Assembly (NCBI RefSeq): GCF_026210795.1 | Contig: NC_089434.1 | Span: 2,604,001 to 2,668,000, forward strand | DNA: 64,000 nucleotides | Reading direction: 5' to 3' | Source of the DNA: Rhizophagus irregularis | Taxonomy: Eukaryota > Glomeromycota > Glomeromycetes > Glomerales > Glomeraceae | Shown: piece after piece, positions 2 to 29,500 of the stretch | How positions within the stretch are numbered: the stretch's first letter is position 1 | How the letters are laid out: each line of letters begins with the position of its first letter | Notes under the pieces: model-generated | What the model was told of the DNA's origin: nothing | What the model saw: only the letters and a program-made list of their open reading frames with translations | Database searches by the model: none | Program-made: the position numbers and the translations under genes

Positions 2-1051
2 CGTGAATGCTGCTCCTTTGCTGCGACCATCCGACCCGCAAAGCTCTCTTCTAAACAAGTCGTGTATTTATATAATGCTGTTCTTGTACCAAAACTTGAA
101 TATCGGATGCAAGTTACCCACTTGTCTGAATCTGAATGCCACCTAATAACGAGAAGTATACGATCCGTTGTAAAGCACAAAGCGAACTTTTCTCGTTTTT
201 TACCCAACCCCATTCTATTTTTGTCCCAAGCTTTGGGCTTGATTAATTTGTTCGCTCATCAACGACAATGTCATATTACTAATTTATTTTTAATGGCTAA
301 TTCTTCTTCTTCTTTTATTCAATCTCTTTTTATTTACAGATTGTGTTTAATTCAATATAATTTTTTGATTCCTATTTCTCCTTTATTAATTAAGGACTGG
401 TCTATATGGTCTTCTTTATTTTCTTTTAAGAAAGATTATATCGCATGCACTATTGCTCTTCTAACTTCTACTCCCTTTCGTTTGCTTCATACTCAACTTT
501 TGAAGCTTCCAAATTTATCCCTACCAGATGGATGCGTTCCTTTATTCGAATGCACGACGCCTAAAGCCTTTAAAGCTTATTTCCCCATTTTGCGAAACGA
601 CAACTGTTTTATTTATCTCAACTTGTTACTCCTCAAGGAACTCATTTAATTTCTTGGAAGGCTTATTATGACAATTTGGTTGGACGACGTGGCCCTGGCC
701 GTATCCCTTATTGGTACAAAGATATTCAACAAGTTACCACTATTTCTGACTCCAACAATCGTCTGCTGGATCATTTCACTATTACGCCCAAGATTGTCTC
801 TTCATCTTATGAATTGGCTCCCTGTTCATCCTCTCCTTCTACTACAAAAATTGGATTGTCACGTTGGACGATTATGGTTCTCCCATCTTTGGCAAACAAC
901 TCTTGGTCCAAACAAGTCGTGTACTTGTTCTATTGTTCACTGGATTTCTCCTGATTGCGAATCTTCGCCTGGCGATCTCATTAGACTCTCTCCTTGCCCT
1001 GGTTGCGCTGCTTCATACTCCTTTGCCTCCTTCCAAAAAACGGAATGCTGA
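2..1051 (+). pseudogene. LINE copy 1: reverse transcriptase C-terminal and connection region, frameshifted
   Basis: The open stretch 62-649 matches the equivalent part of copy 2 (about 3986-4331 onwards) almost residue for residue, including QVTHLSES and SIRSVVKHKANFSRFLPN. The catalytic RT motifs lie upstream and outside the window. Unlike copy 2, the WSIWSSLFSF segment is intact here. After PILR, near position 590, a one-base change shifts the frame, and the continuation (KAYYDNLVG, PYWYKDIQQVTTISDSNN) is read in another frame from about 650. The region after that carries further frame changes. The identification rests on direct comparison of the two copies in this window. Confidence 0.75.
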
Positions 1052-1060
1052 TTTAACCCT

Positions 1061-2002
1061 TTGTACGCCTACGGTCTCTCTACAACATTCGCTTATTTTG
1101 CCCACTACTAATGAACGAATTAGACGTACTACTTCTGAAGTGGCTTCACCTTTTACTTGGGCTGATATAGAAGATGGTGTCCGTCTTTATTATAGTAGAT
1201 TGGATTTTGATTCCGATTCTTCTTCTGCAGATACCGTTATAGTCTCTAATACTCCGCTCACAATTGAATCCTCGGCTGCTGCTGTCTTTGCAAATTCCCC
1301 GTTGGTCGTTTCCTCGATTCGTGCTATACCTTTTTCTTTTACGCTGATGGGTCTCTTATTAATTTAGGCACTCCCGATGTCTCTATGGGCTGGTCTTGGA
1401 TGCAAATAGTCCCTGATGCAGGTTTTCCTAACTCCATCGCCACTTATGCTCATGGCCTTATACGAGATAATCTCTCTTCTTCTCGAGCTGAGGCTGCTGC
1501 TATATATGCAGTTTTAACTATTTCTCCACGCGACTCAGAAGTTACTATTTATACTGACTCACAAACTGCCATTGATGGCCTTCGAAGTTGTTCTTCTTTT
1601 GTCTACTCAAACAGTCGTCTGTACTACAAAACTACAAATTTTGAGCTTTGGGCGATTATTGAGCGAACCATCCTTTCCAAAAATCTGACAGTTTTTCCTG
1701 TTAAAGTTAAAGCTCACTCCGGCAATTATTTAAACGATTTTGCTGATTCCTTGGCCAATACTGCCCATACCGCGTCATCTAGTATTCTGATCTCCGGAAT
1801 GGACCTGGCCTCTGCTCATGATTTTGTCTTAGTGTATGATAACGATGTTGTTTGTGAATCTAATCCGCGACACCTTCTCAAACTATATTATCAAACGCAG
1901 TTAATGCGTGATTTGTTAAATTTAACGCGTTTTCACTTCACTTCTTTATTGACATCTAATATAGATTATATTATTGACTGGAAATTACTTGGTTTACTTT
2001 AA
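1061..2002 (+). pseudogene. LINE copy 1: RNase H domain, frameshifted
   Basis: The region encodes an RNase H domain of the type found after the RT in many LINEs, where it removes the RNA strand of the hybrid. The order of motifs follows copy 2: a first acidic segment (here in a different frame, YADGSLI near 1340), then SRAEAAAIYAVL, IYTDSQTAIDGL and KVKAHSGNYLNDFADSLANT. A frameshift near 1310-1370 separates the first aspartate from the rest, whereas copy 2 reads it in one frame. A second change near 1985 (WKLLGLL then stop) ends this open stretch early relative to copy 2, which reads WDLTWFTLNF. Confidence 0.8.
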
Positions 2003-2676
2003 ATTTCAAGCCCTCTCATGATGCATCTTTTACTCCCGACCACGCATCAAGACACTTAACCTTTAAATTCAAACTTTTCTTGGATGATTTGCCTACTTTG
2101 GAAAAGCTGAAACGGACTCGACCAGATTTATACATGGACGAATTAACTTGCCGTTCTTGTATCGACCGCATGGAAGACCTGATGCACCTTTTTATGTGCA
2201 AAAATCGTCGTCTACCTATGCAACAGATTCTTCAATCTTATCAAAACCATTTGCTTTCTAAACTTCTGGAAGCTGGAAACATGGCTGATATTGACCTTAC
2301 TCCACTTATCGCTAAACTTACCTCTTTTTCATGCTGGTCCTTTTCTTCTACTAATTGGTCCTCTTATGCCCTTGTCCGTGGTTGTTTGCCTAAACTCTTT
2401 ATTGACTTATTTGTCGATTTATCCATCCCAAGGAACTCTGCGATTAAGGTTATCGCTGCTATTCACAATAATTTTGTTCAAAAATTCAGACGACGAATTT
2501 GGAATCCGCGTTCTTATGATAAAAGTAGATGGGAAAACGCGATGAATATTACCTACAAGATGAAAACTACTCTGATGCCTTCTAATTTGCCTTTGTCAAC
2601 GTACATACCTTACTCATCTTTACCACCTCTCGACCCTACACGATTCACGCGACTCCAGAACCGATTGGTTAGTTAA
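2003..2676 (+). pseudogene. LINE copy 1: C-terminal Cys/His-rich region
   Basis: The open stretch 2080-2676 continues the LINE polyprotein after the RNase H domain. It contains CRSCIDRMEDLMHLFMC, a C-x2-C...H-x3-C arrangement resembling the zinc-knuckle-like motif seen near the end of many LINE ORFs. The sequence then runs through a basic region (FRRRIWNPRSYDKSRWENAMN) to a stop at 2674-2676. It is about 95 percent identical by eye to copy 2 but frameshifted against the RNase H frame just upstream. Confidence 0.7.
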
Positions 2677-3064
2677 CTCGATGAAATATGGTTTGCCTTG
2701 GTTTAATCACTTTTCGGGTTTTATGGGTCGTCTAACGGTGCTACTTAATAACAGCTTTTGCAGGATGGAGTGTCGATTTTTATAGTGGGCGCGCTATTCG
2801 TTATTTTGTTAGCATAGTTGCTTCTACTTTGTTTGAAATATATCAACGGGGAAGATCTGGGGAAATTTAGTGTAATGCGATTTTTCTTTTTTAGATTAAT
2901 TTTTTTACTTTATTTTTTCTTAGGAGACTATATAGCTTTGTTTTTAGTTAGTTTTATTTTTATATTTTTCTTTTTATTTTTGTAAATTGTAAAGTTCGAA
3001 TAAAATTAATAAAGATAAAGGCTACTATGCCATGTTTGCCTGGTTTTTGACTAGTAAAAATACT

Positions 3065-4331
3065 CGCCCCATTACTCTACTTGAAGTGATTAGAATATCT
3101 CTTGTCAAACTTTTTTATAATCGCCTTTCTACTATTATGGCCTCACATAATGTCCTTGAAAGCGTAACAATTACGCCTGCTTCCTTCCCAGCTGGGTTCT
3201 TGCCGTGACCCTATTATTACTCTAGAATCTATTATCCATGACGCTGATATCAACAAAAATCCACTTTGGATTCTTTCCCAAGATATTTCTAAAGCTTTTG
3301 ACTCAGTTGATCTAACAATGTTACGTTTCGCTTTAGAACGTATACGTCTTCCAGCCTCCGCTGTTAAGTTTATCCTTTCCTTTTTCACGAAACGCACTAA
3401 TCGCGTTTTCACTGCTCATGGATCTACGCCTGCTTATAGAGTTCGCATTGGTATTGACCAAGGCGAAGTTATCTCTCCTCTTTTATGGGTTATTTATATT
3501 GATCCCTTACTTACTGTTTTGAAGAATGAAATGATGGACCCTTATGTTCTTTCTACACCGTCTTTAATTGATTCTCCAACTTCTTCTCCTGATTTGAAGA
3601 TTAATAATTTAGTTTTTATGGATGACTCTACTCTTATTTTCTCGTCAAAAGCTGGCATGGCATTTATGTTATCCATTACTGAAGAATTTTACCAAATCAA
3701 TAACACTTCTGCCAATCACAACAAATATGTGTTAATCACTAATTCGTTGCCTTTGACTTCGAATTCCACTTTACTCCCTATTACTTTTAACTTGGATTTA
3801 TCCTCTTTAAATAGTGTTCCTTCTATTACTATTACCCCAATTTCCATGACAACTTCTTTTCGTTTTTTAGGTGTTTGGTTTAACATTAAGAGCTCCCGTG
3901 ATTTTGTCAAAAAACAACTCAAACGCGAATGCTGCTCCTTTGCTGCGACCATCCGACCTGCAAAGCTCTCTCCTAAACAAGTCGTGTATTTACATAATGC
4001 TGTTCTTATACCAAAACTTGAATATCGAATGCAAGTTACCCACTTGTCCGAATCTGACTGCCACCTAATAACGAGAAGTATACGATCTGTTGTAAAGCAT
4101 AAAGCAAATTTTTCTCGTTTTTTACCCAATCCTATTTTATTTTTATCTCAAGCCTTGGGCTTGATTAATTTGTTTGCTCATCAACGACAATGTCATATTA
4201 CTAATTTATTTTTAATGGCTAATTCTTCTTCTTTTTTTATTCAATCTCTTTTTATTTATAGATTGTGTTTAATTCAATATAATTTTTTGATTCCTATTTC
4301 TCCTTTGTTAATTAAGGACTGGACTATATAG
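3065..4331 (+). pseudogene. LINE copy 2: reverse transcriptase domain
   Basis: The RT core is recognisable. RPITLLEV lies near 3069. Motif A, ILSQDISKAFDSVD, is at 3270-3311 with the first catalytic aspartate. The motif B region is GIDQGEVISPLLWVIYIDPL near 3450-3510. Motif C is FMDDSTLIFSS near 3617-3650, with methionine in place of the usual alanine of FADD. The frame is intact from about 3190 to 4330. A frame change near 3180-3205 separates it from the RPITLL segment. The stop at 4329-4331 replaces the tryptophan codon present in copy 1 (WSIWSS), so this is a nonsense mutation. Confidence 0.85.
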
Positions 4332-5039
4332 TCTTCTCTATTTTCCTTTAAGAAAGATTATATCGCATGCACTATTGCTCTTTTAACTTCTACTCCCTTT
4401 CGTTTGCTTCATACTCAACTTTCGAAGCTTCCGAATTTATCTCTGTTAGATGGATGTGTTCCTTTATTCGAATGCATGACGCCTAAAGCCTTTAAAGCTT
4501 ATTTCCCCATTTTGCGGAAACGACAACTGTTTTATTTATCTCAGCTTGTTACTCCTCAAGGAACTCATTTAATTTCTTGGAAGGCTTACTATGACAATTT
4601 GGTTGGACATCGTGACTCTGGCCATATCCCTTATTGGTACAAAGATATTCAACAAGTTACCACTATTTCTGACTCCAACAATCGTTTGCTGAATCATTTT
4701 AATATTACGCCTACGATTGTCTCTTCATCATATGATTTGGCTCCTTGTTTGTCCTCTCCTCCTACTACAAAAAATTGGATTGTCACGTTGGATGATTATG
4801 GTTCTCCTTTTTTTGGCAAACAACTTTTGGTTCAAGCAAGTCGTGGTACTTGTTCTATTGTTCACTGGATTTCTCCTGATTGTGAATCTTCGCCTGATGA
4901 TCTCATTAGACTTTCTCCTTGCCCTGGTTGCGCTGCTCATACTCCTTTGCCTCCTTCCAAAAAACGGAATGCTGATTTAACCCTTTGTACGCCTTTACTG
5001 GTATCTCTGACATTCGGCTTATTCTACGCTACCCAATGA
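4332..5039 (+). pseudogene. LINE copy 2: connection region between RT and RNase H
   Basis: The frame continues after the nonsense codon at 4329 and stays open to 5039. It includes FKAYFPILRKRQLFYLSQLV, HIPYWYKDIQQVTTI and a cysteine-containing stretch (CSIVHWISPDCES, LSPCPGCAAH). This is the long linker typical of this LINE type. Near 4990-5040 the frame is lost by a small indel and NERIRRTTSEV resumes in the RNase H frame. The same segment in copy 1 (650-1060) is more heavily frameshifted. Confidence 0.7.
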
Positions 5040-5790
5040 ACGGATTAGACGTACTACTTCTGAAGTGACGTCTCCCTTTACTTGGGCTGATATAAAAGAT
5101 GGTGTTCGTCTTTATTATAGTAGATTGGATTTTGATTCTGATTCTCCTTCTGCAGATACCGCTGTAGCTTCTGTTACTCCTGTTACTATTGAATCCTCGG
5201 CTGCTGCTGTTTTTGCAAATTCCCTGCTGGTCGTTTCCTCAGATTCGCGCTATATCTTTTTCACTGATGGGTCTCTTATTAATTTAGGCACTCCAGATGT
5301 TTCTATAGGCTGGTCTTGGATGCAAATAGTCCCTGATGCAAGTTTTCCTAACTCCATCGCCACTTATGCTCACGGCCTTATACGAGATAATCCTTCTTCT
5401 TCTCGAGCTGAAGCTGCTGCTATTTACGCAGTTTTAACTATTTCTCCACGCGACTCAGAAGTTACTATTTATACTGACTCGCAAACTGCCATTGATGGTC
5501 TTCGAAGTTGCTCTTCCTTTGTCTATTCAAATAGTCGTCTATACTTCAAAACTACAAATTTTGAGCTTTGGGCTATTATTGAGCGAACCATTCTCTCCAA
5601 GAATTTAACCGTCCTTCCCGTCAAAGTTAAAGCTCATTCTGGCAATTATTTAAACGATTTTGCTGATTCCTTGGCCAATACTGCTCATACTGCGTCATCC
5701 AGTATTTTGATTTCTGGAATGGACCTGGCCTCTGCTCATGATTTTGTCTTAACTTATGATAACGATGTTGTCTGTGAATCTAATCTGTGA
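5040..5790 (+). pseudogene. LINE copy 2: complete RNase H domain
   Basis: In one frame the sequence shows the four acidic or histidine signatures of RNase HI: FTDGSL (first aspartate, near 5260), SRAEAAAIYAVL (glutamate, near 5400), IYTDSQTAIDGL (second aspartate, near 5470) and KVKAHSGNYLNDFADSLANT (near 5625-5685). The stop at 5788-5790 (CGA arginine in copy 1, TGA here) is a point nonsense mutation followed by the rest of the C-terminal region. The domain looks structurally complete but sits in a broken element. Confidence 0.85.
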
Positions 5791-6710
5791 CACCTTCTCA
5801 AACAATATTATCAAACGCAGTTAATGCGTGATTTGTTAGACTTAACGCGATTTCATTTTATTTCTTTATTATCATCTAATGTAGATTATATTGTCGACTG
5901 GGATCTTACCTGGTTCACTTTAAATTTCAAGCCTTCTTATGATGCATCCTTTACTCCTGAGCACGCTTCAAGACACCTAACCTTTAAATTCAAACTTTTC
6001 TTGGATGATTTGCCTACATTGGAAAAGCTTAAACGAACTCGACCAGACTTATACATGGACGAATTAACTTGCCGTTCTTGTATCGACCGCATGGAAGACC
6101 TGATGCACCTTTTTATGTGCAAAAAACGTCGTCTGCCTATGCAACAAATTCTTCAATCTTATCAAAATCATTTGATTTCCAAAATCGTAGAAGCCAGAAA
6201 ATTGGCTGATATTGATCTTACTCCATTCATTGCTAAACTTGCTTTTCTTTCATGCTGGTCCTTTTCTTCTCACAAATTGGTCCTCCTATGCCCTGCTCCA
6301 ATTAAGGTTGTTTACCCAAACTCTTTATTGACTTATTTGACAACTTATCCATTCCAAGGATTTCTGCGATAAAGGTTATCGCTGCTATTCACAATAATTT
6401 TGTCCAAAAATTCAGATGCCGAATTTGGAATCCGCGTTCTTATGAAAAAAGTAGATGGGAAAACGCGATGAATATTACTTATAAGTTGAAAACTACTCCG
6501 AAGTCATCTAATTTGCCTTTGTCAACGTACATACCTTACTTATCTTTACCACCTCTGACCCTACACGATTCACGTGACTCCGGAACCGATTGGTTGAAGA
6601 ACTCGATGAAATATGGTTTGCCTTGGTTTAATCACTTTTCGGGTTTTATGGGTCGTCTAACGGTGCTACTTAATAACAGCTTTTGCAGAATGGAGTGTCA
6701 ATTTTTATAG
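5791..6710 (+). pseudogene. LINE copy 2: C-terminal Cys/His-rich region
   Basis: The open stretch 5824-6372 carries the same CRSCIDRMEDLMHLFMC motif as copy 1, then loses frame near 6270 (SSHKLVLLCPAP replaces SSTNWSSYALVRG). The equivalent of the copy 1 ending (RIWNPRSYEKSRWENAMN and NLPLSTYIPY) is read in two further frames up to about 6600. The stretch 6600-6710 (MKYGLPWFNHFSGFMG) corresponds to the sequence just after the stop of copy 1. Confidence 0.7.
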
Positions 6711-6979
6711 TGGGCGCGCTATTCGTTATTTTGTTAGCATAGTTGCTTCTACTTTGGTTGGAATATATCGGGGGAAGATGCGGGAAATTTAGTGTAATGC
6801 GATTTTTCTTTTTCAGATTAATTTTTTTTACTTTATTTTTTCTTAGGAGACTATATAGCTTTGTTTTTAGTTAGTTTTATTTTTATATTTTTCTTTTTAT
6901 TTTTGTAAATTGTAAAAGTTCGAATAAATTTAATAAAGATAAAGGCTACTATGCCATGTTTGCCTGGTTTTTGACTAGT

Positions 6980-7689
6980 GCCTGTCGTACACTTTTGAAA
7001 TTTTTTGGAAAGTTATATCGTACTGTGGTACAAATTTCCTTTTTGGGTGCTCATGTGAAGTGACTTTTGTCATACACTTAATAGTCAACAATAAAAAAAA
7101 TTTGTTGTACACTCAATTAGTGGTAAAAAGACTTTGTTGTACATTTAATTTATAATATAGAAAGTTTTGGTGTACACTTTTAACCAAATTGATAATTTTT
7201 ATTATTAGTTATAAGATTTATATTAAGACAAAACTTAAAATAATTGCACATTAATATAAAAATTAATAGTTGTGAAGTTACGATAACTGGTTAATCATTT
7301 TATATTATTAATTTATTAATATTTAATGAATTATTTTTCACCATTTTTTCGCAATGTTATATAAATATATTTAAAAAAGTATTTACCCAAGATATATAAA
7401 AAAACTAATAAATATTATTAAATAAATTAATGAAATTTATTTTAATTGACTTATTATTAAAAAACTTTTATTAATAAATAACAAAAATGTTTCTTATTTA
7501 ATCTAATTAGCATAGTCGTACATTTTGCAATTTTATTCAATTGCTTTGAATGTACATTTTGGCTAAATTTGGAGCAAATATTAAACATTCATCGTACAAT
7601 ATAAAAAAATTTTTGCTGATGTCATACATTTAAGCAAAATTTTGCTGTACACTTTGACACTTTCTCAGACAAAGTTCACTATATAACAA
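6980..7689. repeat. Subterminal-like repeats, motif TGTACACTTT
   Basis: No gene is seen here. The motif TCGTACACTTTTGAAATTTT and variants (TGTACACTTTTAACC, TGTACATTTTGG, CATACATTTAAGC) recur about ten times between 6985 and 7660, on one strand, separated by AT-rich DNA. They stop just before the CACTA-type transposase remnant. Clustered short direct repeats are typical of the transposase-binding subterminal regions of CACTA elements, so this may be the 5' end of the element that carried 7690-9993. I could not find a clean matching terminus on the other side. Confidence 0.5.
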
Positions 7690-9993
7690 ACGTTCGTATT
7701 CAGGGGCCCTCTTGAAGGATGAAATTGTGTCAAACGGTCTTGGCTGAGAGAGAGGTTAAAAAGCCAGAATTAATATATCCATTTGTACTGATTCATCAAC
7801 AATTGAAAACTCTATATCGTTGGTCTCACTTTAAACGGTTACTTCGACATTAGTCAAATTATCGACAATTCGATAACATACTGACCGATATATATGACAG
7901 TCAAATCTGGAAAACATTAAGAGAAACTGACGATGAAAATTCAGCAAAATTTTTCTGACCAGAAGTAGTCAATTCACATCTAGGACTAATGATAAACTTT
8001 GATTGGTTCCAGTTCTACGATAATACATTTTATAGTATCAGGGTAATTTACGCGGCTATCTGTAATTTACCCTGTGACATTTGGTTCAAATGCGAAAATT
8101 CGCTAGTTCTCAGTCTACTACCAGGACTGAACGAAGTAAGCTTGCACAAGATTAATCATTATATTGTGCCTATTGTCAATGAATTAGAGTTACTATGGAT
8201 TGAAATAACTTTAAATCAAACATTTGAGTGCCAAAATGGAAAAAATATTCATGCGACTTTAGTACTAATTTCGTGTGATATTCCTGCTGTTCAAAAAATA
8301 TGCAGGCATATTTTAGCTTTGGTTTCTTGCCATCGGTGTATGAAATGAGCAAATTATGAAAACAACTAACATAATTTTGCAAATATGGAGGATATGGAGA
8401 ATTGGTTCATTACTCGTGATTCGACTGAACATCATCGGAATGCTCTTGCATGGCGAAGTTGCAATTCCACCAATTCAAGAAAGAATTTCGTTAGTGAAAA
8501 AGGGGTTAGGTGGTCGGAGTTACTTTGATTGCCGTACTTTGACCTAATTCATTTTATTATTGTAGATCCAATGCACTGCTTATTCTTAGAAATTGCGAGA
8601 TGGATAATGAAGAGGATTTGGATCGATGAGGGTGTTTTAACCCTGAATGATCTAAAGAAGATTCAAGAAAAAATGAATTAATTCAAAATACTGGCTGATT
8701 TAAGACGAATTCCTGGAATATTGAGCGCAGAAAAGGGTTTTTGAACTATACAGCTGATTAGTGGCAAATTTTCTTTATAATCTATGCAACTACCTTATTG
8801 TGGAAACATTTACCGTCAAAAGATCAAAAAATCTTGACACATTTCGTTCGAGTTTATTCTATTTTAGTAAGCCGAATTTTAAAAATTGAATTAATGGAAG
8901 AAGCTCATGAGAGGCTAATTAAAATAATTAAGCTTATTGAAGTACACTATGGAAGAGTAAAAATTACACCTAATCTTCACCTTTCGCTCCATTTGTGCGA
9001 TTATTCAAATGATTTTGGTCCATTGTATGCATTTTGGTGTTTTTCATTTGAGCGTATGAATGGAATACTCGGTAAGATATTCTTTTTTTTACTTTTTTTA
9101 CTTTATTCGGATGTTTACATTGTTGATCTTATTTTTAATAATTTTTAAGACTCGTTGCCAACAAGTAATAAACAAATTGAACTGGAAATAATGCGTCAGA
9201 TAATGAATGATAATCAAATTGGAGATATCATTAGTTCTGACATTCAAACAAAAGGCTTAGAATTGCTTGAAGATCAACCCACAACTGGTTCAATATTGGC
9301 TGCAGACCAATTTTCTTTAGATGAACTAGAGCAGTTTTGGCTAAATGCTAAAAACATACAGGAATCAACTATTACTGGATGCGAGCCATTTTCTAAAGAA
9401 ATGCTGAAGCCTAATTCTGAAGCAATAATGACCGAATCAATGCTTGAACTGATGGTTGTTTTTTATAATGCTTCTTATATCAAAATGTACAAGTTTCGCA
9501 AATCAGCAGATGAAATTATCCAAGATTCTATAACAATTCGAGTAAAGATAAATCAATTTGGAAGATGCCGAATTGGTTCTGAAGTATTTGGCTTCGCAAT
9601 GTCAGTTCGACATACAAAAAGCTCGTGTGTTCTAGCCAAATTTATAACTAGTGATGGAGAAGTCGACAGTTATCCTGGACAAATTCAATACTTCTTCAAA
9701 CATACAGTCGACTTGCCAAATGGACAAATGGAACATAATTTGGCATATATTTGTTGGTATCGACCAGCTAGTATGAGTGAAAGTTGATATTATTTTCATA
9801 TTGATAATGAAGATGAGAGCTGTAACGTCGAGTTGTGGAAATCTGAATTTTATAATGAAAGTCGCGATTGTATTATTCCTGTACATAATATCCTTTGTCG
9901 ATTTATACCATCAAAATATCAAATTTCTACTCAGAGTAATGCTATTGAATATTTGGCGATTAATCCAATTAATCGCAAACTTCAAATTCGTTA
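7690..9993 (+). pseudogene. Decayed CACTA-type (CMC) transposase, C-terminal part
   Basis: A transposase reading frame can be followed through many stops and frameshifts. The pieces in order are: PELIYPFVLIHQQLKTLYRW (7775); DWFQFYDNTFYSIRVIY (8000), then FECQNGKNIHATLVLISCDIPAVQKICRH (8221); an IIVDPMHCLFLEIARWIMK segment near 8560, where the D-P-M-H-x-L-F block is the hallmark of CACTA transposases; ITPNLHLSLHLCDYSNDFGPLYAFWCFSFERMNGILG (8964-9078), resembling the DUF4218 region of that superfamily; and a C-terminal domain (9155-9993) ending IEYLAINPINRKLQIR before a stop. The N-terminal half is missing. A related N-terminal half occurs at 35700-36768. The family call rests on these motifs. 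Confidence 0.75.
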
Positions 9994-21690: not shown

Positions 21691-22274
21691 AATAATGATT
21701 GACACGTAAATTTCCTTTTATGGAATTTTGTGTAATATTTGTGCGACATATTTCTTTGATTTTACTGGAAAACAAAATTTCCTTTTTTTGGAAATTTGTG
21801 TAATATCACGTGACACAATGTCATGATTTTGGCCGAATTTTAATTTTGGCCAAAATTAAGACCGAGTTCCGGCCTAATTTTGGCATTTTCAGCTTTTGAT
21901 TTGATTGGCCAAAACCTTTCAGAATTTCCTTTTTAGTTTCGGCAGGCAACTTTAAATGACACAGTTTTAACTGCTTTAGAAGACCTAGACTAGGAATTGG
22001 AATCGATTCCCATTATTAGAATCGTTATTAAAATCGATTAATCGCGATTAATCATTTCGCAAATACCGATTTTTTTTTATACTATTTATAATAGGTGTGT
22101 TTAAACACATATCACGTGATTACGAAAAATTACAGTGATCGATGAACAAAATTCCTTTTTTGGAAATTTGTACAACCTTGTGCGATAGCAACTTGAATTT
22201 TATTGGGAGATAAAATTTCCTTTTTAGGAAGTTTGTGTTCCGTCACGTGATTCGCGGGCGGAATTATGAATTTG
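21691..22274. repeat. Repeat-derived intergenic DNA with AATTTCC/CACGTGA motifs
   Basis: Units related to 18300-18505 recur here: AAATTTCCTTTTTTTGGAAA followed by TTTGTGTAATATCACGTGA (21775-21815) and AAATTTCCTTTTTAGGAAG with CCGTCACGTGATT (22214-22250). A TCGATTAATCGCGATTAATC-type stretch (22020-22060) has relatives at 25570-25670 and 61680-61780. No gene seen. Confidence 0.5.
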
Positions 22275-22479
22275 CACTAGTCGAAAAAGGAACATTCGGC
22301 CTTAATACAATTCGGCCTATATTCGACTAAAATTAAAAAATTCGACTTCAATTAGTAATGATCTACGATTAGACATATATTCAACCTTGTTGAATAAACG
22401 TTACGCGTTACGCGTTACGCGTATTAAAAGTTTAAAAAAGGATCATCTTATTGCATTCTTTTTTAAACTTTTTTAATTT

Positions 22480-22600
22480 TCTTTCTTCCCCTTCCCCTTT
22501 CCCTTCGTTCCTCTTTCCTCCTTTTACTTCCCTTCGTCCCTTTACTTTTCTTATCCTTTTCCCCTTTCCCCTTTCCCTTCGTCCCTCAGTTTTTTTTTTC
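22480..22600. repeat. Polypyrimidine tract
   Basis: The plus strand is almost pure C/T (CTTCCCC, CCCTTTCCC and CCCTTCGTCCC units) leading to TTTTGTAG at 22601-22608, a plausible 3' splice acceptor for the first exon-like module at 22609. Confidence 0.7.
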
Positions 22601-22608
22601 TTTTGTAG

Positions 22609-25136
22609 GTCAAGACGCCCATTTAGAAGGCCGGACTTCCTATTTCGAAGGTATATATATACCTTCAAATTTTATTTTGTTGTTTTTTAACGAAACGTTT
22701 TACTAACGTTTTCGTTTTTTGCTTTTGTAGATCAAGACGTGACTGAGATTCGTAAGTATTATTACGAATAGTGGATTTTTTTAATATTATAGAACGGTTT
22801 ACCAGCCGTTCTTGTTTTTTTATAGATTTCGAGGGAAGTGAAAACGAAAGGGGAAGAGAAAACGAGAGGGGAAGCGAAAAAAACGAAAAAGGTGGGCGAA
22901 AACGGGAAGCGAAAAAATAAAAAGAAAGGGGAAGCGAAAAAACGAAAGGGGAAGAAAATGAAAGGGGAAGCTAAAAACAGAAAGGGAAGCTAAAAACGAA
23001 GGGAAGCTAAAAACGAAAGAAGCCAAAAACGAAAGGGAAAAATTTAAAAACGAGGGCTAAAAACGAAAGCTACAAAAACGAAAGGGAAGCTAAAAACGAA
23101 AGAAGCTAAAAACGAAAGGGGAAGCTAAAAACGAGGAAAGGGGTTAAAAACGAAAGGGAAGCTAAAAACGAAAAAAAAACGTGGGATAGGGTAAAACGAA
23201 AGGAAAAGGAAAATGGAAAAGAAGGGGGAAAACGAAGGGGAAAAGAAAGGGAAAACGAAAGGGGGAAAACAAAAGGGTAAAACGAAAGGGTAAAACGAAA
23301 GGGGAAAACGAAAGGGGGAAAACGAAAGGGGAAAACGAAAGGGTGAAACGAAAGGGGAAAACGAAAGAAAACGAAAACGAAGGGAAGGGTAAAACGAAAG
23401 GAGATGGATTTCCGAAAGAGTATTTTAAGATTCGTAAGTATTGTATTACGAATCAAATATTTTTTTTTTTTTTGTTTTTTTTAAATATTATCGTTATGAA
23501 CGGTTTACTAACCGTTCTTTCTTTTTTTAGGTTCGGGTGGGCTTCCGAAGAACGGAAAACCCAAAGATTTGTAAGTACGAATCTTTAATTTATTTTTGTT
23601 ATTTTTTTATTATTACGAACGGTTTACTAACCGTTCTTGTATTTTTTTATAGGTTCGGGAGGCTTCGAAGAACGAAAACCCAAAAGATTCACGTACGAAT
23701 CTTATTTTTTTTATTTTTTTTTAATATTATGAACGGTTACTAATAACCGTTCTTTTTCTTTTTTTTTAGGATCGGATGGGCTTCCGTGTTCCGAAGAACG
23801 GGAAAATTCCAAGATTCGTAAGAATCTTGGATTTTTTTTTATTTTTTTTAAAAAAAATATTACGAACAGTTACTAATAACCGTTCTTTTATTTTTTATAG
23901 GTTCGGCCGTTCGGGTGGGCTTCCGTGTTCCGAAGAACGGGAAATCTCCAAAGATTCGTAAGAATCTTGGATTTTTTTTTTATTGTTTTTAAAAAAAATA
24001 TTACGAACGGTTACTAATAACCGTTCTTTCTTTTTTTAGGATCTGGTGGGCTTCCGAAGAAAGGAAAACCAAGAAACCAAGATTCGTAAGTAAGTACGAA
24101 TCTTGGTTTAATTTTTTTGTTTTTTTTTTTAATATATGAACGGTTTACTAATAACCGTTCTTTTCTTTTTTTAGGATCGGGTGGGCTTCCGAAGAACGAA
24201 AACCCAAAGATTCGTAAGTACGAATCTTTAATCTTTTTTATTTATTATTATTACGAATGGTTTACTAACCATTCTTTCTTTTTTTAGGTTCGGGTGGGCT
24301 TCCGAAGAACGAAAACCCAAAGATAAAGATTCGTAAGTACAGTACGAATCTTTATATATTTTTTATTTTTATTTTTTTTTATCATTTTGGAACGGTTTAC
24401 TAACCGTTCCTTTCTTTTTTTAGGTTTCGGGCGGGCTTTTGTGTGGGAAAAACCAAGATTCGTAAGTACGAATCTTGGTTTAATTTTTTTAATTTTTTTT
24501 TTTAATATTAATGAACGGTTACTAATAACCGTTCTTTCTTTTTTTAGGATCGGGTGGAGTGGGCTTCCGACCTTCGGAAAAGAAGAACCAAGATTCGTAA
24601 GTACGAATCTTGGTTTATTTTTTTAATTTTTTTTTTTAATATTACGAACGGTTACTAATAACCGTTCTTTCTTTTTTAGGATCGGGTGGGCTTCTGACCT
24701 TTGGGAAAGAGGAACCAAGATTCATAAGTACGAATCTTGGTTTATTTTTTTTTGATTTTTTTTTCAATATTAATGAACGGTTACTAATAACCGTTCTTTC
24801 TTTTTTAGGATCGGGTGGAGTGGGCTTCCGACCTTCGGGAAAAGAAGAACCAAGATTCGTAAGTACGAATCTTGGTTTATTTTTTTGATTTTTTTTTAAT
24901 ATTATTATGAACGGTTACTAATAACCGTTCTTTTCTTTTCTTTTTAGGTGCCGGGTGTCTCAGGTGTCTTCTGAAGAACGGAAAAAACCAAAGATTCGTA
25001 AGTAAGTACGAATCTTGGTTTTTTTTCTTATTTTTTTTTAATATTATGAACGGTTACTAACCGTTCTTCTCTTTTTTTTATAGGTTCGGGTGGATTGCTA
25101 AAGAACAATCAAAGATTCGTATATACGAATACATGA
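22609..25136 (+). CDS. Candidate multi-micro-exon gene with structured introns (function unknown)
   Basis: Fifteen intron-like units of 74-97 bp start at 22651, 22752, 23434, 23571, about 23693, 23818, 23958, 24086, 24214, 24333, 24462, 24597, 24724, 24859 and 24998. Nearly all have GTAAGT-type donors, TACTAAC or CTAATAAC branch-like sites 18-25 nt before a T-rich TAG acceptor. From 23190 the exons join in order into one open frame ending at TGA 25134-25136. Repeated peptides are rich in Gly, Lys and Arg (SGGLPKNGKPK, DRVEWASDLRKRRTK). Oddities: donor 24724 is ATAAGT, donor 23693 is GTACGA, the purine tract 22840-23190 is closed in each frame by repeat slippage, and no start codon or signal peptide is found. 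It recalls SP7-type Rhizophagus effectors, which have basic tandem repeats and several introns, but homology is unproven. It may equally be a decayed or non-coding array. Confidence 0.5.
22840..23405. repeat. Polypurine tract, unit AAACGAAAGGGGAAGC
   Basis: About 565 bp of almost pure purine on the plus strand, built from imperfect AAAACGAAAGGGGAAGCTA units of 12-20 bp. It lies between the second and third intron-like units. With the polypyrimidine tract at 22480-22600 it forms a pair of long homopurine/homopyrimidine segments on opposite strands, able in principle to form triplex DNA or RNA:DNA hybrids. Minus-strand open stretches here are repeat artefacts. Confidence 0.85.
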
Positions 25137-25511
25137 ATCATGTAATTGTGGAATTGTATTTGAATTAGCAATATTTTTTGTAAATTAGATAGATGCAATA
25201 ATAATAATATAATTATAAAGTATTTAAGCATTAATAAATACATTTATTTAATAAATTTGATAAAAAAAATCAAAATAAATTCATAAATAAATGGGTTGTT
25301 ATTAGACCATAATTCGGCTTAAAGTTTTAAGGTCGAATATTGGTCAATTTAAACCTAAATAATGGTCGAATAATTAGTCCGAATTTGGGACGATTGGCAC
25401 CCTAAATGCGCCCGAAAATTCGACCTCAATTTGACACAGGTTAGACCATTATTCGACCTATATTCGACCTGGTCAAATTTAGGCCGAATTGTCCTTTTTC
25501 GACTAGTGTTG

Positions 25512-26528
25512 GCCAAAATTAACTATTATGAACAAATAATAATTTACGGTCAAATTAACGAAACTGCGCCACAATAAGTAGATTCGATTTTTATTCGAGA
25601 TTCGATTTAAAATCGATTCTTATCGATTTTCGATAGTTTCGATTTTAATCGAATCTTTTCCGATCCCTACACTAACGATAATTCGCACACTCAATTTCAA
25701 CAACAACAACAAAATTTTCTTGATGTAAATGGTTCATTTATCAATTTCAATAACTTTCGTGGGTAACACTTTCTGATTTAAGTAATATAACATACAGTAT
25801 ACTATATGCTATTCTACACATCTATTTTTCCTATCATTATACGATATTTTATTTTGATATTTTTATATAAGGAGAATTTTATAGGTTATTTATTAGCAAT
25901 ATTTATTATTAAGGTTAATTTTAATTTACGGTCAAATTAACGAAACTGCACCACAATAAGTAGATTCGATTTTTATTCGAGATTCGATTTAAAATCGATT
26001 CTTATCGATTTTCGATAGTTTCGATTTTAATCGAATCTTTTCCGATCCCTAACCTAGACAATACATTTTTCATTGAATATTCAAATTCTGAAGATTCTGA
26101 AGATAAAAAAGAATCTAATATTATCAATCAGTGGTCATGTCAGGGATCAGCAGGGATCGGTATGGGAAGTTGATTTAATTAAAGGTTCTACATTTATATT
26201 AATACATTTTTGTAAAACCGTTTTTTTGGTTAAATAAAAAATCTTACATAATAAAGTACACTAAAAATTTACATGTGACTTAGTGCTATTTCGAAGTTAT
26301 ATTATATTAAGTTTTATCATTATTGGATAAATATTGAGAAACTTTTATTAGGAGCGTATTTTTACGAAGCGAAAAATGGCCAAACTTCAATTGTATTTTA
26401 ACGTAAAAGTGTTGTTTCAACGTGGTCTGTAACACTATGTTATGCAAAACGTGAAGACCTTAAGTAGATATTTTTGTCTCCTTACGGACAAAAAAGAATG
26501 TCAGTAACTTGCATCTCTACAATTTATT
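25512..26528. repeat. Intergenic DNA with 128-bp direct repeat
   Basis: The segments 25541-25669 and 25923-26050 are almost identical (AATTTACGGTCAAATTAACG then a TCGATTTT/AAAATCGA-rich palindromic stretch ending TTTTCCGATCCCTA). Between them a short open stretch with Gln repeats (TQFQQQQQNFLDVNGSFI) is followed by GTAACA and could be an exon remnant. The rest to 26528 is AT-rich with no supported gene. Confidence 0.55.
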
Positions 26529-29500
26529 TTGACTATTTTTTGTCAAAGGAAATCATTAATGTCAGAACAAAAATATGAAATTTCCACACCCTTGCCTTCT
26601 ATAGACTTTTTAGAAGAATACAACGATGAAATAAGCAGTAATGACGAGTTTGGACGTGAAATGTTAAATGAAACACTTGATAATACTAGTGATATACATT
26701 TTGAAGACCCTGAAAAAAAAAAGAAAAATGATTGTGAAACATTTGAACATGATGAAGTTATAGATAATTTAGAACACACTGAACTTACACCATATGTAGT
26801 TATCGATTTTATTAAGGGTGAAGTTCAACGATGTGGGGAATCAACGAAACTAAGACAATTACGAAATTTGTTTGGAACATGGCAAGTCGACAGAGATGCA
26901 ATCAATGAAGTTGATGGAGTTTTAATAAGATTAGGAGTATGTAATACTCATTTCCAATTTGATAATAAGTATCTACATCAATCACGAAATAAACAATTGA
27001 AAGATTTTAATCAAGGAATTATTCAATGGAGACGATGCATTTCTTGTAATAAATATATTACTTTTTTTTCTCGGGGCGCAGGATGCACATTACATTCTTG
27101 GCATTTAAATAAACAAAATATTCAAGTTCCATGTATTGGACAGTATACATGTGAGGCGCTACGAGATTGTCTACCAGTGTGTAAACGGGCTTTTGATGAC
27201 ATTAATCCGTGGTAAAAAGTGTGTGTTACTGGTATTACGAAAATTTGGGTAGTCATATTCATCATCATTCTGGGAGAGGAAAAAGTGGGATAACATGTAC
27301 TACATTACATGCTGATGATACAGCAAAAGGGTTAGAGTATTTGGGTAACTGGTTAATTAATATCGCACAAACAGGAAATGACAAAGAAAAAAATCAAAAA
27401 ATATTAACTAAAGCTTTCGAAGCCCTTCTTCCCTTTGCCGACCTAATGTTCAGTTCCAATTCTACTATTACTACTCTTATCTCAACTACCCTAAATGAAC
27501 CTCCCAGTTTGTTTATGATAAAGACTCTTTTTATTGAATTTTCTAAAAAACAAGAAATTGAAAAAAAATTAGAAATCAAAGAAAAAGAACTTGAAAAAAA
27601 AGAAATTGAAAAGAAAGAAATCGAAAAAAAATTAGAAATAGAAGATTTTGAGGCAGGTATACTCTCTTTTTCTTCATGAAAACTCACGGTAAAAAAAAGA
27701 TGCGAATGAATAATTTTTTGATTGATTGATACAGGAATTTGGTTGTACATTTGGACAAAAATTATGGAATTCTTGATCATATGTCAATTCAAGAGCATCT
27801 GCCTTAGAATCTCCGCAAACTATTCAAGAATATTACGATGGGTTTCCCAAGTTTTTAAATGATTTCTTCTTTGGAGTAATTGATGAATTATATCAAAAAA
27901 TGATAATAGTATGCAACTGGCAACGAAAAAAATGTCACAAGTTACCAAAAACTGTAATTTCTGAACTGATAATGAAAACTGTAACATTATTACGTCGATG
28001 TTATTAGGACTAGCTTTTCCTCATTTGAAAATTTGGTTATCTCAAGTTTTAGCTAGCCTTAGTCGTATGCCAAGATTACTGGGTTCTTTTCAACAGTTGT
28101 TAACAGTTTGTCACGTAAGTTCTCATAGTGACAGACACGAACAAAAACTTGCAAAAATCCGAATGGAAGAATCGAATCCATCAAACCGTTTAATTCGCGC
28201 TAACAATGTGTGAAATTTAGCAATCATCGATAACATCGATTTTAAAGAGAAGAGTTTCAAGTTCGGTAATATATATGATGTTACGCGTGGTAACTCACAT
28301 GCCACTCTGAGAATGGCCTTTCAAGCCCAATTGCCAGTCGAAATAGAAACTAGTCCTGAACAAGTCATCGAGTTAACTCCTAATACTTCATTATTCGGGA
28401 TGAATTAGAGTATTGATGAAACGTTAAATATGTTTCAAAAGGTTATTTTTGATTTGTTAGATTTCAAAGAAATTGAAGGTGAATTAATTTACAAGACAAA
28501 TTTTGATGGGGAAACTATCAAGCGCGTTTTACTTACTAAATTAGACCCAGAATGTCTTGGTCCTTCTCCCAATGTTGTAATATTAGAGCCAGGAGCCAAT
28601 CCGAATTCTGACGAAGAAATTTTGCATGTTTCTGAAATGTATAAGGAGGACTTTGCGATGAACAATCATTCCTTTTTAGATATCATAGCAGATGAGGCGA
28701 TCTTTCGTAGGTTAATCAAATGCCGGGAGAAATGGCCAAATATAAGACCTCACTTGGGCCAATGGCACACGTTGAAGGACTTTTGTTCAGTTTTGATAGT
28801 CCTATTCTCTAGTTACGGATTATTAAATTTGGCGTCATGTTTGGGCGTTCATTTCTTGGACAAATTATAAGCTGCAGTCAATTATCGGTCAACTGCACGA
28901 GTATTGGATCTTTTATGGGTGGCAGTGGGGATAGCAATCAATATTTACATAAAAAAAATTGGAATATCACTTTCAGATATAATAGATGATGAAAATGATG
29001 CTCATGTTTGTCTCAAAGTATAGTATACCTTTATTTTATATTACCAATTAATTATATTGTATTTTATTTATTTTATTATTTATTTATAATTATGTAAAAC
29101 TTACTTTATTACAATAAAAAGATATGGTACTTATACTATAAATGGGCTGGTATCTGGAAAGTGCATTGGATGGGAATGCGCATAGGAAACTTTGGTCTGC
29201 AACGAAATTCTTTATCTGCAGCGGCTTCACTTTACGCAAGTGCAGCGAAATCCAACTATACGACAGCTATAGCCCATTATCTTAACGTCATGCGCAAATT
29301 CTTAAATTAAATTAGAAGAAAGATTAAATTATTGTGGCACCTTTAAAATTCCCCGCGATGTTAATGAAGATTCACGGCATGTTTGTTTTGGCTTTGACGA
29401 AGCTCTGAAAACGTTTGGCGTAAGGTTTATCAAACAAAATGTTTATGGAAATATAATTGATGAGAAGAACCTTAGAGATCAGATAAAGTCTTCTCAGGAC

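Follow-up and report, generated by a model that had tools for sequence, protein, structure and literature searches.

The nearest described system to the locus reported here is Tgm-Express1 of Glycine max, a CACTA element with spliced cargo. According to its published account, it is 5.7 kb long, contains five unrelated host gene fragments and has been shown to be spliced by RT-PCR (PMC1947982). Fungal introner-like elements, which also have a stable structure, are discussed in an article on fungal introns (PMC8469720). For Rhizophagus irregularis, a transposon paper reports CACTA/CMC families and the expression of CMC-EnSpm elements in colonised roots, and leaves two thirds of the transposons of this fungus unclassified; the available part of its text does not contain the word 'intron' (PMC11075540). 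Nanopore (long-read) and Illumina RNA reads of strain DAOM197198 have also been published (PMC10234402).

The window analysed here is a stretch of 64,000 nucleotides of R. irregularis (C6:2604001-2668000), and genome-wide searches covered 32 contigs with 146,748,485 bases. At 813-6372 the window contains long open frames in two blocks that resemble each other; by eye the frames look like reverse transcriptase and RNase H, and the blocks are likely LINE-type copies. The subject of this study is the element at 22275-25508, hereafter W. It represents a recent family of non-autonomous CACTA (CMC/EnSpm-type) DNA transposons of R. irregularis, and we consider it probable that W is moved by tnp2 and carries a spliceable, non-coding array as a passenger. 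An earlier note on this DNA knew of no CACTA element with such cargo. That statement has to be narrowed, because Tgm-Express1 exemplifies spliced cargo as such (PMC1947982). A tandem hairpin-intron array is a different kind of cargo, and among the open-licence PMC papers listed in searches for micro-exons, intron arrays and CACTA cargo, no title or abstract opening describes one in a transposon.

Ends and target site of the element

The features that define the limits of W are as follows.

22272..22274, no strand: left copy of the target-site duplication (TSD), TTG (sequence; empty sites)
22275..22306, + strand: left terminal inverted repeat, CACTAGTCGAAAAAGGA... (inverted-repeat and genome end searches)
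22275..22424, no strand: 5' subterminal region, containing motifs of the TTCG[AG]C type (its first 111 nt match L046 at 79% identity)
25378..25508, no strand: 3' subterminal region (131 nt at 94% identity to L046, a tnp2 element of autonomous type)
25477..25508, - strand: right terminal inverted repeat (inverted-repeat and genome end searches)
25509..25511, no strand: right copy of the TSD, TTG (sequence; empty sites)

The two ends, 22275-22306 and 25477-25508, form an inverted pair of 32 nt that is 91% complementary, with the first 17 nt identical, and that opens with CACTAGTCGAAAAAGGA (a CACTA start). With up to three mismatches allowed, this 17-mer matches the window at three places, two of them the ends of W, against 0.17 expected. 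TTG flanks the element on either side. Motifs of the form TTCG[AG]C / G[CT]CGAA occur five times in the first 150 nt and eight times in the last 250, that is, 13 times in the two ends (400 nt) versus once in the intervening 2834 nt. The inverted CACTA-type termini, the flanking TTG and the TTCGACC-type subterminal motifs described in the earlier note are thus all present. The open-frame list of the window includes no transposase frame of at least 150 aa inside W, which is therefore non-autonomous. CACTA-type terminal inverted repeats, a 3-bp duplication, subterminal repeats and a tnp2 (PF02992) element with common ends place it among the CACTA / EnSpm (CMC) elements.

Sister copies, empty sites and tnp2 partners

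Genome-wide, the 17-mer end has 103 matches with at most one mismatch, compared with none for its reversed control. Ends were paired by eye, and 20 pairs of less than 5 kb, with ends 1.4-4.3 kb apart, were fetched; with W they make a set of 21 elements, outside which stand a 5.3-kb GGC-type pair (L021, fetched separately) and pairs of 14 kb and 27 kb. The search for further copies with the termini of W, proposed in the earlier note, therefore yielded 20 more elements, and 19 of the 21 show a perfect 3-bp duplication, the exceptions being L002 and L020. By eye, no two of the 21 elements have the same flanks, apart from L016 and L020; these two occupy a single insertion site, and the set therefore represents at most 20 events. 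An open frame in the window at 28409-28870 resembles, by eye, the gene interrupted by L016 and L020; it has no Pfam match and may be an uninterrupted relative of that target gene.

When the flanks of W are rejoined with a single TTG, the resulting sequence aligns across the junction at 40 of 40 scored places (from 217 candidates, the places belonging to a dispersed repeat) with 94-99% identity, 37 of them at 96-99%. The exact 26-nt empty-site junction is present at all six loci fetched. The flank that the earlier note had rejoined was thus correct; empty sites, which it had named beforehand as a test able to refute its reading, were found, and together with the further copies they support the insertion of a CACTA-type element that duplicated 3 bp of its target. 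The flanks themselves (22125-22274 and 25509-25661) belong to a dispersed repeat, of which at least 40 copies align at 94-99% and a part recurs at position 25919 of the window. In other elements, reading frames are open across the joined flanks, an observation without a chance control. Transposase-type Pfam domains span the junctions of L004 and L011 (E = 3.5e-10 and 4.8e-25), and the joined flank of L012 matches DUF4218 at E = 1.2e-5, slightly under its cutoff; the other three of the six translations sent, from L013, L014 and L016, match no Pfam family. By eye, L003 and L007 are inserted in other arrays.

Judged by their similarity, the copies of the family are young. Over ungapped columns, L001 and L004 are 99.3% identical and W and L001 97.6%, and a search with a 389-nt end query, in which the best 40 of 142 candidates were scored, gave 42 matches, of which 15, W included, are at 98-100% over the whole query. 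Among seven close copies, non-CpG differences amount to 0-1.3%, whereas at CpG nine site classes differ at 4.3-13.5% (the tenth has 0 of 21). This concentration at CpG is as would be expected if the copies were cytosine-methylated.

Elements that encode a transposase have the same kind of ends. A match to tnp2 protein lies within 5.5 kb of 11 of 14 AATAGGA-type ends, in a protein search that scored the best 64 of 856 candidates. Three partner elements were fetched whole: L046 (7207 bp, duplication ACG), L047 (7296 bp, AAA) and L048 (7408 bp, TTG). Their last 131 bp are 92-94% identical to those of W and their first 112 bp 77-79%, and L046 has an open frame of 866 aa that matches PF02992 (tnp2) at E = 3.9e-11. 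Counting L026, three of the four partner copies with both ends have a 3-bp duplication, L026 being the one without. GTAAGTACGA is absent on both strands from all four (L046, L047, L048 and L026), which, together with the common ends, identifies the array elements as non-autonomous relatives of the tnp2 elements. Transposition does not require such a passenger, which is a point against the reading as a whole. Transposition itself is well supported by the ends, the 3-bp duplications, the empty sites, the near-identical copies and the ends of the tnp2 partners, and a tnp2 element of the L046 type would cut and paste W in trans.

Two side observations concern L026 (C17:70477-78683). Its tnp2 CACTA element lies between a CACTA-family array and a different array and has no target duplication, a layout that is probably due to a nested insertion plus rearrangement. 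An open frame in the window at 9149-9787, without a Pfam match, resembles by eye the second frame beside the L026 tnp2 (6760-7623).

The predicted intron and micro-exon array and its hairpins

The interior of W was parsed into the following features, most of them from a splice-site model.

22475..22608, + strand: pyrimidine-rich leader ending in TTTTGTAG, the first predicted acceptor (sequence, splice model)
22609..22650, + strand: predicted exon 1, with the next donor within GAAGGTATATATATACCTTC (sequence, splice model)
22731..22751, + strand: predicted exon 2 (splice model)
22826..23433, + strand: predicted long purine-rich exon with GAAAGGGGAAGCTAAAAACG-type repeats (splice model)
23434..25083, + strand: core tandem array, with 13 introns and 12 micro-exons (38-57 nt) predicted (parse, splice model)
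24462..24547, + strand: example of a predicted intron, with donor in CCAAGATTCGTAAGTACGAATCTTGG, branch in GAACGGTTACTAATAACCGTTC, a T tract and TTTTTTAG (splice model)
24724..24729, + strand: donor ATAAGT in W, GTAAGT in the near-identical L001 and L004 (copy comparison)
25084..25118, + strand: last predicted micro-exon, 35 nt (parse, splice model)
25233..25238, + strand: AATAAA, a possible poly(A) signal in an AT-rich tail (sequence only)

After 25118, GTATATACGAATAC may be terminal exon sequence. The fifteen repeated units with ordered intron signals described in the earlier note were recovered as 15 branch-bearing units, from which the model predicts 16 exons and 15 introns; 14 of these introns open with GT and one, at 24724, with AT.

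The same organisation is found throughout the family. All 21 paired copies carry the array, with modules of about 130 bp, in a single orientation relative to the ends, which bears out the suggestion that the element moves together with it. Summed over the 21 elements, there are 278 GTAAGT motifs in sense and one in antisense; for TACTAAY the counts are 272 in sense and 19 in antisense. Donor, branch, pyrimidine tract and acceptor, the signals of a spliceosomal intron, follow one another in order: a model of donor, branch, pyrimidines and TAG has 5-22 sense matches per element and no antisense match save one in L010, compared with three and two on the two strands of the remainder of the window.

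The array is widespread. Counted strand by strand and with at most one mismatch, the genome contains 485 matches to the donor palindrome and 572 to the branch palindrome (both reversed controls 0), these patterns being near-palindromic, so that some places may count twice; the array strand of the 21 elements accounts for 105 of the donor matches. Of 100 exact donor places listed, 84 were clustered, giving 41 clusters, 31 of them outside paired elements, on C1-C10. Eleven loci outside paired elements were fetched because of donor matches, and every one is an array, with 3-15 intron-model matches. L027 bears a CACTA-type right end with four mismatches and L028 one with two. Other layouts were also seen. 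L021 (C25:1273135-1278436), 5.3 kb long with AAAAAGGC ends, has array units on both strands and looks like an inverted duplication, and L035 and L045 (C17, about 78.5-83 kb) form, by eye, a third type of micro-exon array in which the strand switches along the locus and branch sites lie in hairpins with the donors mostly outside. As a query, L035 matches mainly a dispersed repeat of about 244 bp.

Hairpins enclose many of the predicted splice signals. Of 120 distinct donor sites, 81 overlap a stem of at least 8 bp, as do 59 of the 122 branch sites that are distinct, versus none of 30 donor and 30 branch motifs of the same kind elsewhere in the window. One unit of the core array (within 23434..25083) folds at -43.1 kcal/mol, 5.9 standard deviations below shuffles (z = -5.9). 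When arms are swapped among units, stems of at least 8 bp persist in 47% of cases at donors and 30% at branches, indicating that much of the palindromy is common to units. With geometry fixed, compensation at donor pairs 9, 11 and 12 lies above all 300 shuffles, while the inner donor pairs and every branch pair do not exceed them; an excess of branch covariation from a mixed-geometry count was dropped in favour of this fixed-geometry count, which shows none. A resemblance to the Rfam family L20_leader, at 25-30 bits versus a cutoff of 58.7, was treated as chance in AT-rich hairpins.

Divergence between related units was compared in 226 unit pairs drawn from 332 units at 32 loci, leaving out donor, branch and acceptor because paired units were recognised by their donor and branch motifs. 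Non-CpG differences are 2.8-5.6% in the hairpin arms, 5.8% in the T tract, 9.9% in the spacer and 10.8% in the exon, rising to 16.5% in the exon bases directly outside the donor arm. This suggests that the arms are under constraint or homogenised and that exon sequence is unconstrained. The close copies have too few variable sites to show selection on the splice motifs.

The same architecture recurs in an element with other ends. At C1:5228037-5231749 (L050, L054) lies an element of 3713 bp whose ends, CAGCAAGTTT..., are unrelated to the CACTA family, and several of the 200 places of a second branch palindrome fall within it. GGT[AG]AGT donors number nine in its sense strand and one in antisense; in this element, which has no stem control, eight of the nine donors overlap a stem of 6-14 bp, and of ten branch-like motifs with TAG after them, six are within stems of 6-10 bp. 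The arms do not resemble those of the CACTA elements. A donor pattern derived from this element has 57 matches with at most two mismatches (reversed control 0). L049 (C7) has, by eye, an end similar to the CAGCAAGTTT end. A wider reading, which we hold only tentatively and think rather doubtful, is that R. irregularis has a general class of mobile hairpin-intron arrays with unrelated ends, kept because splicing matters and serving as a source of new multi-intron units. Splicing might matter in such a class by giving a gated multi-intron RNA, for example, or by camouflaging insertions in transcribed DNA.

Competing readings and known systems

In the reading that we prefer, a tnp2-moved element with a spliceable passenger, the array would be transcribed from inside the element, its introns would be excised by the ordinary spliceosome, and exons of about 40-50 nt would be joined into a non-coding RNA. 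Modules would multiply and vanish through tandem duplication and deletion, the hairpins would most likely tune or gate the use of splice sites, and the RNA may be a passenger. Strong hairpins over donors can block splicing, and an unlikely alternative is that the CACTA element is real and the array a palindromic satellite, unspliced, whose splice-like motifs are incidental. In its favour, besides the blocking effect, palindromes could act as DNA; exons are not conserved between units, the branch hairpins show no compensation beyond shuffles, and a genome-wide search for a spliced copy (retrocopy) of one junction gave no match at up to three mismatches. Such an array would nevertheless not be expected to present four intron signals, properly ordered and spaced and all on one strand, in each of the 21 elements, nor would the architecture be expected to recur with different arms in an element with other ends. 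We regard it as improbable, somewhat more so than a satellite, that a host gene or fragments were taken up with their introns by Pack-type capture, as in soybean Tgm-Express1. There are known CACTA elements whose captured cargo is spliced, and the leader, the exons and the AATAAA-bearing tail of W are gene-like, but three exon-joined frames match no Pfam family and the array loci fetched look repeat-like, none being recognised as a host gene.

There is little to recommend a protein-coding micro-exon gene, encoding a tandem-repeat protein and carried by the transposon. Its best arguments are that 72 of 177 distinct exons are free of stops in any frame versus 28% (sd 3.5) after shuffling, that in four close copies 19 of 28 exons are stop-free versus 43% shuffled, and that R. 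irregularis has SP7-like proteins with tandem hydrophilic repeats, as their published description has it (PMC11333574). Exon lengths nevertheless fall in all phases (119, 94 and 66 with remainder 0, 2 and 1, among 279 exons under 90 nt in an automatic parse), and a reading frame is not maintained through the exons: spliced models of seven copies, translated in three frames, show that the frame slips from one near-identical copy to another and that the long exon contains stops. The exons also diverge as fast as the intron spacer, and the failure of the three joined-exon frames to match Pfam weighs here as well. The array is probably not a protein gene. A minimal probability remains for introners, that is, single introns as mobile units, a comparison raised in the earlier note. 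DNA transposons with end repeats can give rise to introners, according to the account in PMC9860276, but here the comparison is not supported, as the splice sites, which in introners are at or near the ends of the mobile unit, are internal, away from the CACTA ends, and 11 of the 11 loci fetched on donor matches outside paired elements hold several units, none a single intron.

Should splicing of the array be borne out, a transposon of the cut-and-paste kind would be multiplying ready-made multi-intron transcription units, and many introns would be gained at once by a route other than introners. With donors and branch sites set in hairpins in so many natural units, the family would offer a test bed for the gating of splicing by RNA structure, and near-identical copies, empty sites and the published long-read RNA of the same strain make splicing directly testable. 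The array family could also help to name part of the unclassified transposons of R. irregularis.

Among known systems, the family resembles CACTA / EnSpm (CMC) elements of the tnp2 type in its CACTA termini, 3-bp duplications, subterminal repeats and a tnp2 partner with the same ends; to our knowledge, an internal tandem array of intron modules is not a feature of that group. SP7-like effector genes of R. irregularis likewise have tandem repeats and paralogues scattered over the chromosomes, but they are described as protein-coding with a signal peptide (PMC11333574), and no kinship to the W elements is claimed. Introners and fungal introner-like elements share repetitive introns tied to DNA transposons (PMC9860276, PMC8469720), with the difference that there, in the published accounts, the intron itself inserts in genes, whereas here an array sits inside a larger element. 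The internally symmetrical stwintrons of Hypoxylaceae are similar in being repeated introns with inverted-repeat symmetry, although as reported their inverted repeats lie at the intron termini and they insert without short flanking duplications (PMC8469720), while here separate local hairpins enclose donor and branch. Tgm-Express1 is likewise of CACTA type, with internal exons and introns bearing canonical splice sites, which in W are predicted; its cargo, as described, consists of five gene fragments (PMC1947982), whereas the elements reported here carry a single repeated hairpin-intron module in a family of many copies.
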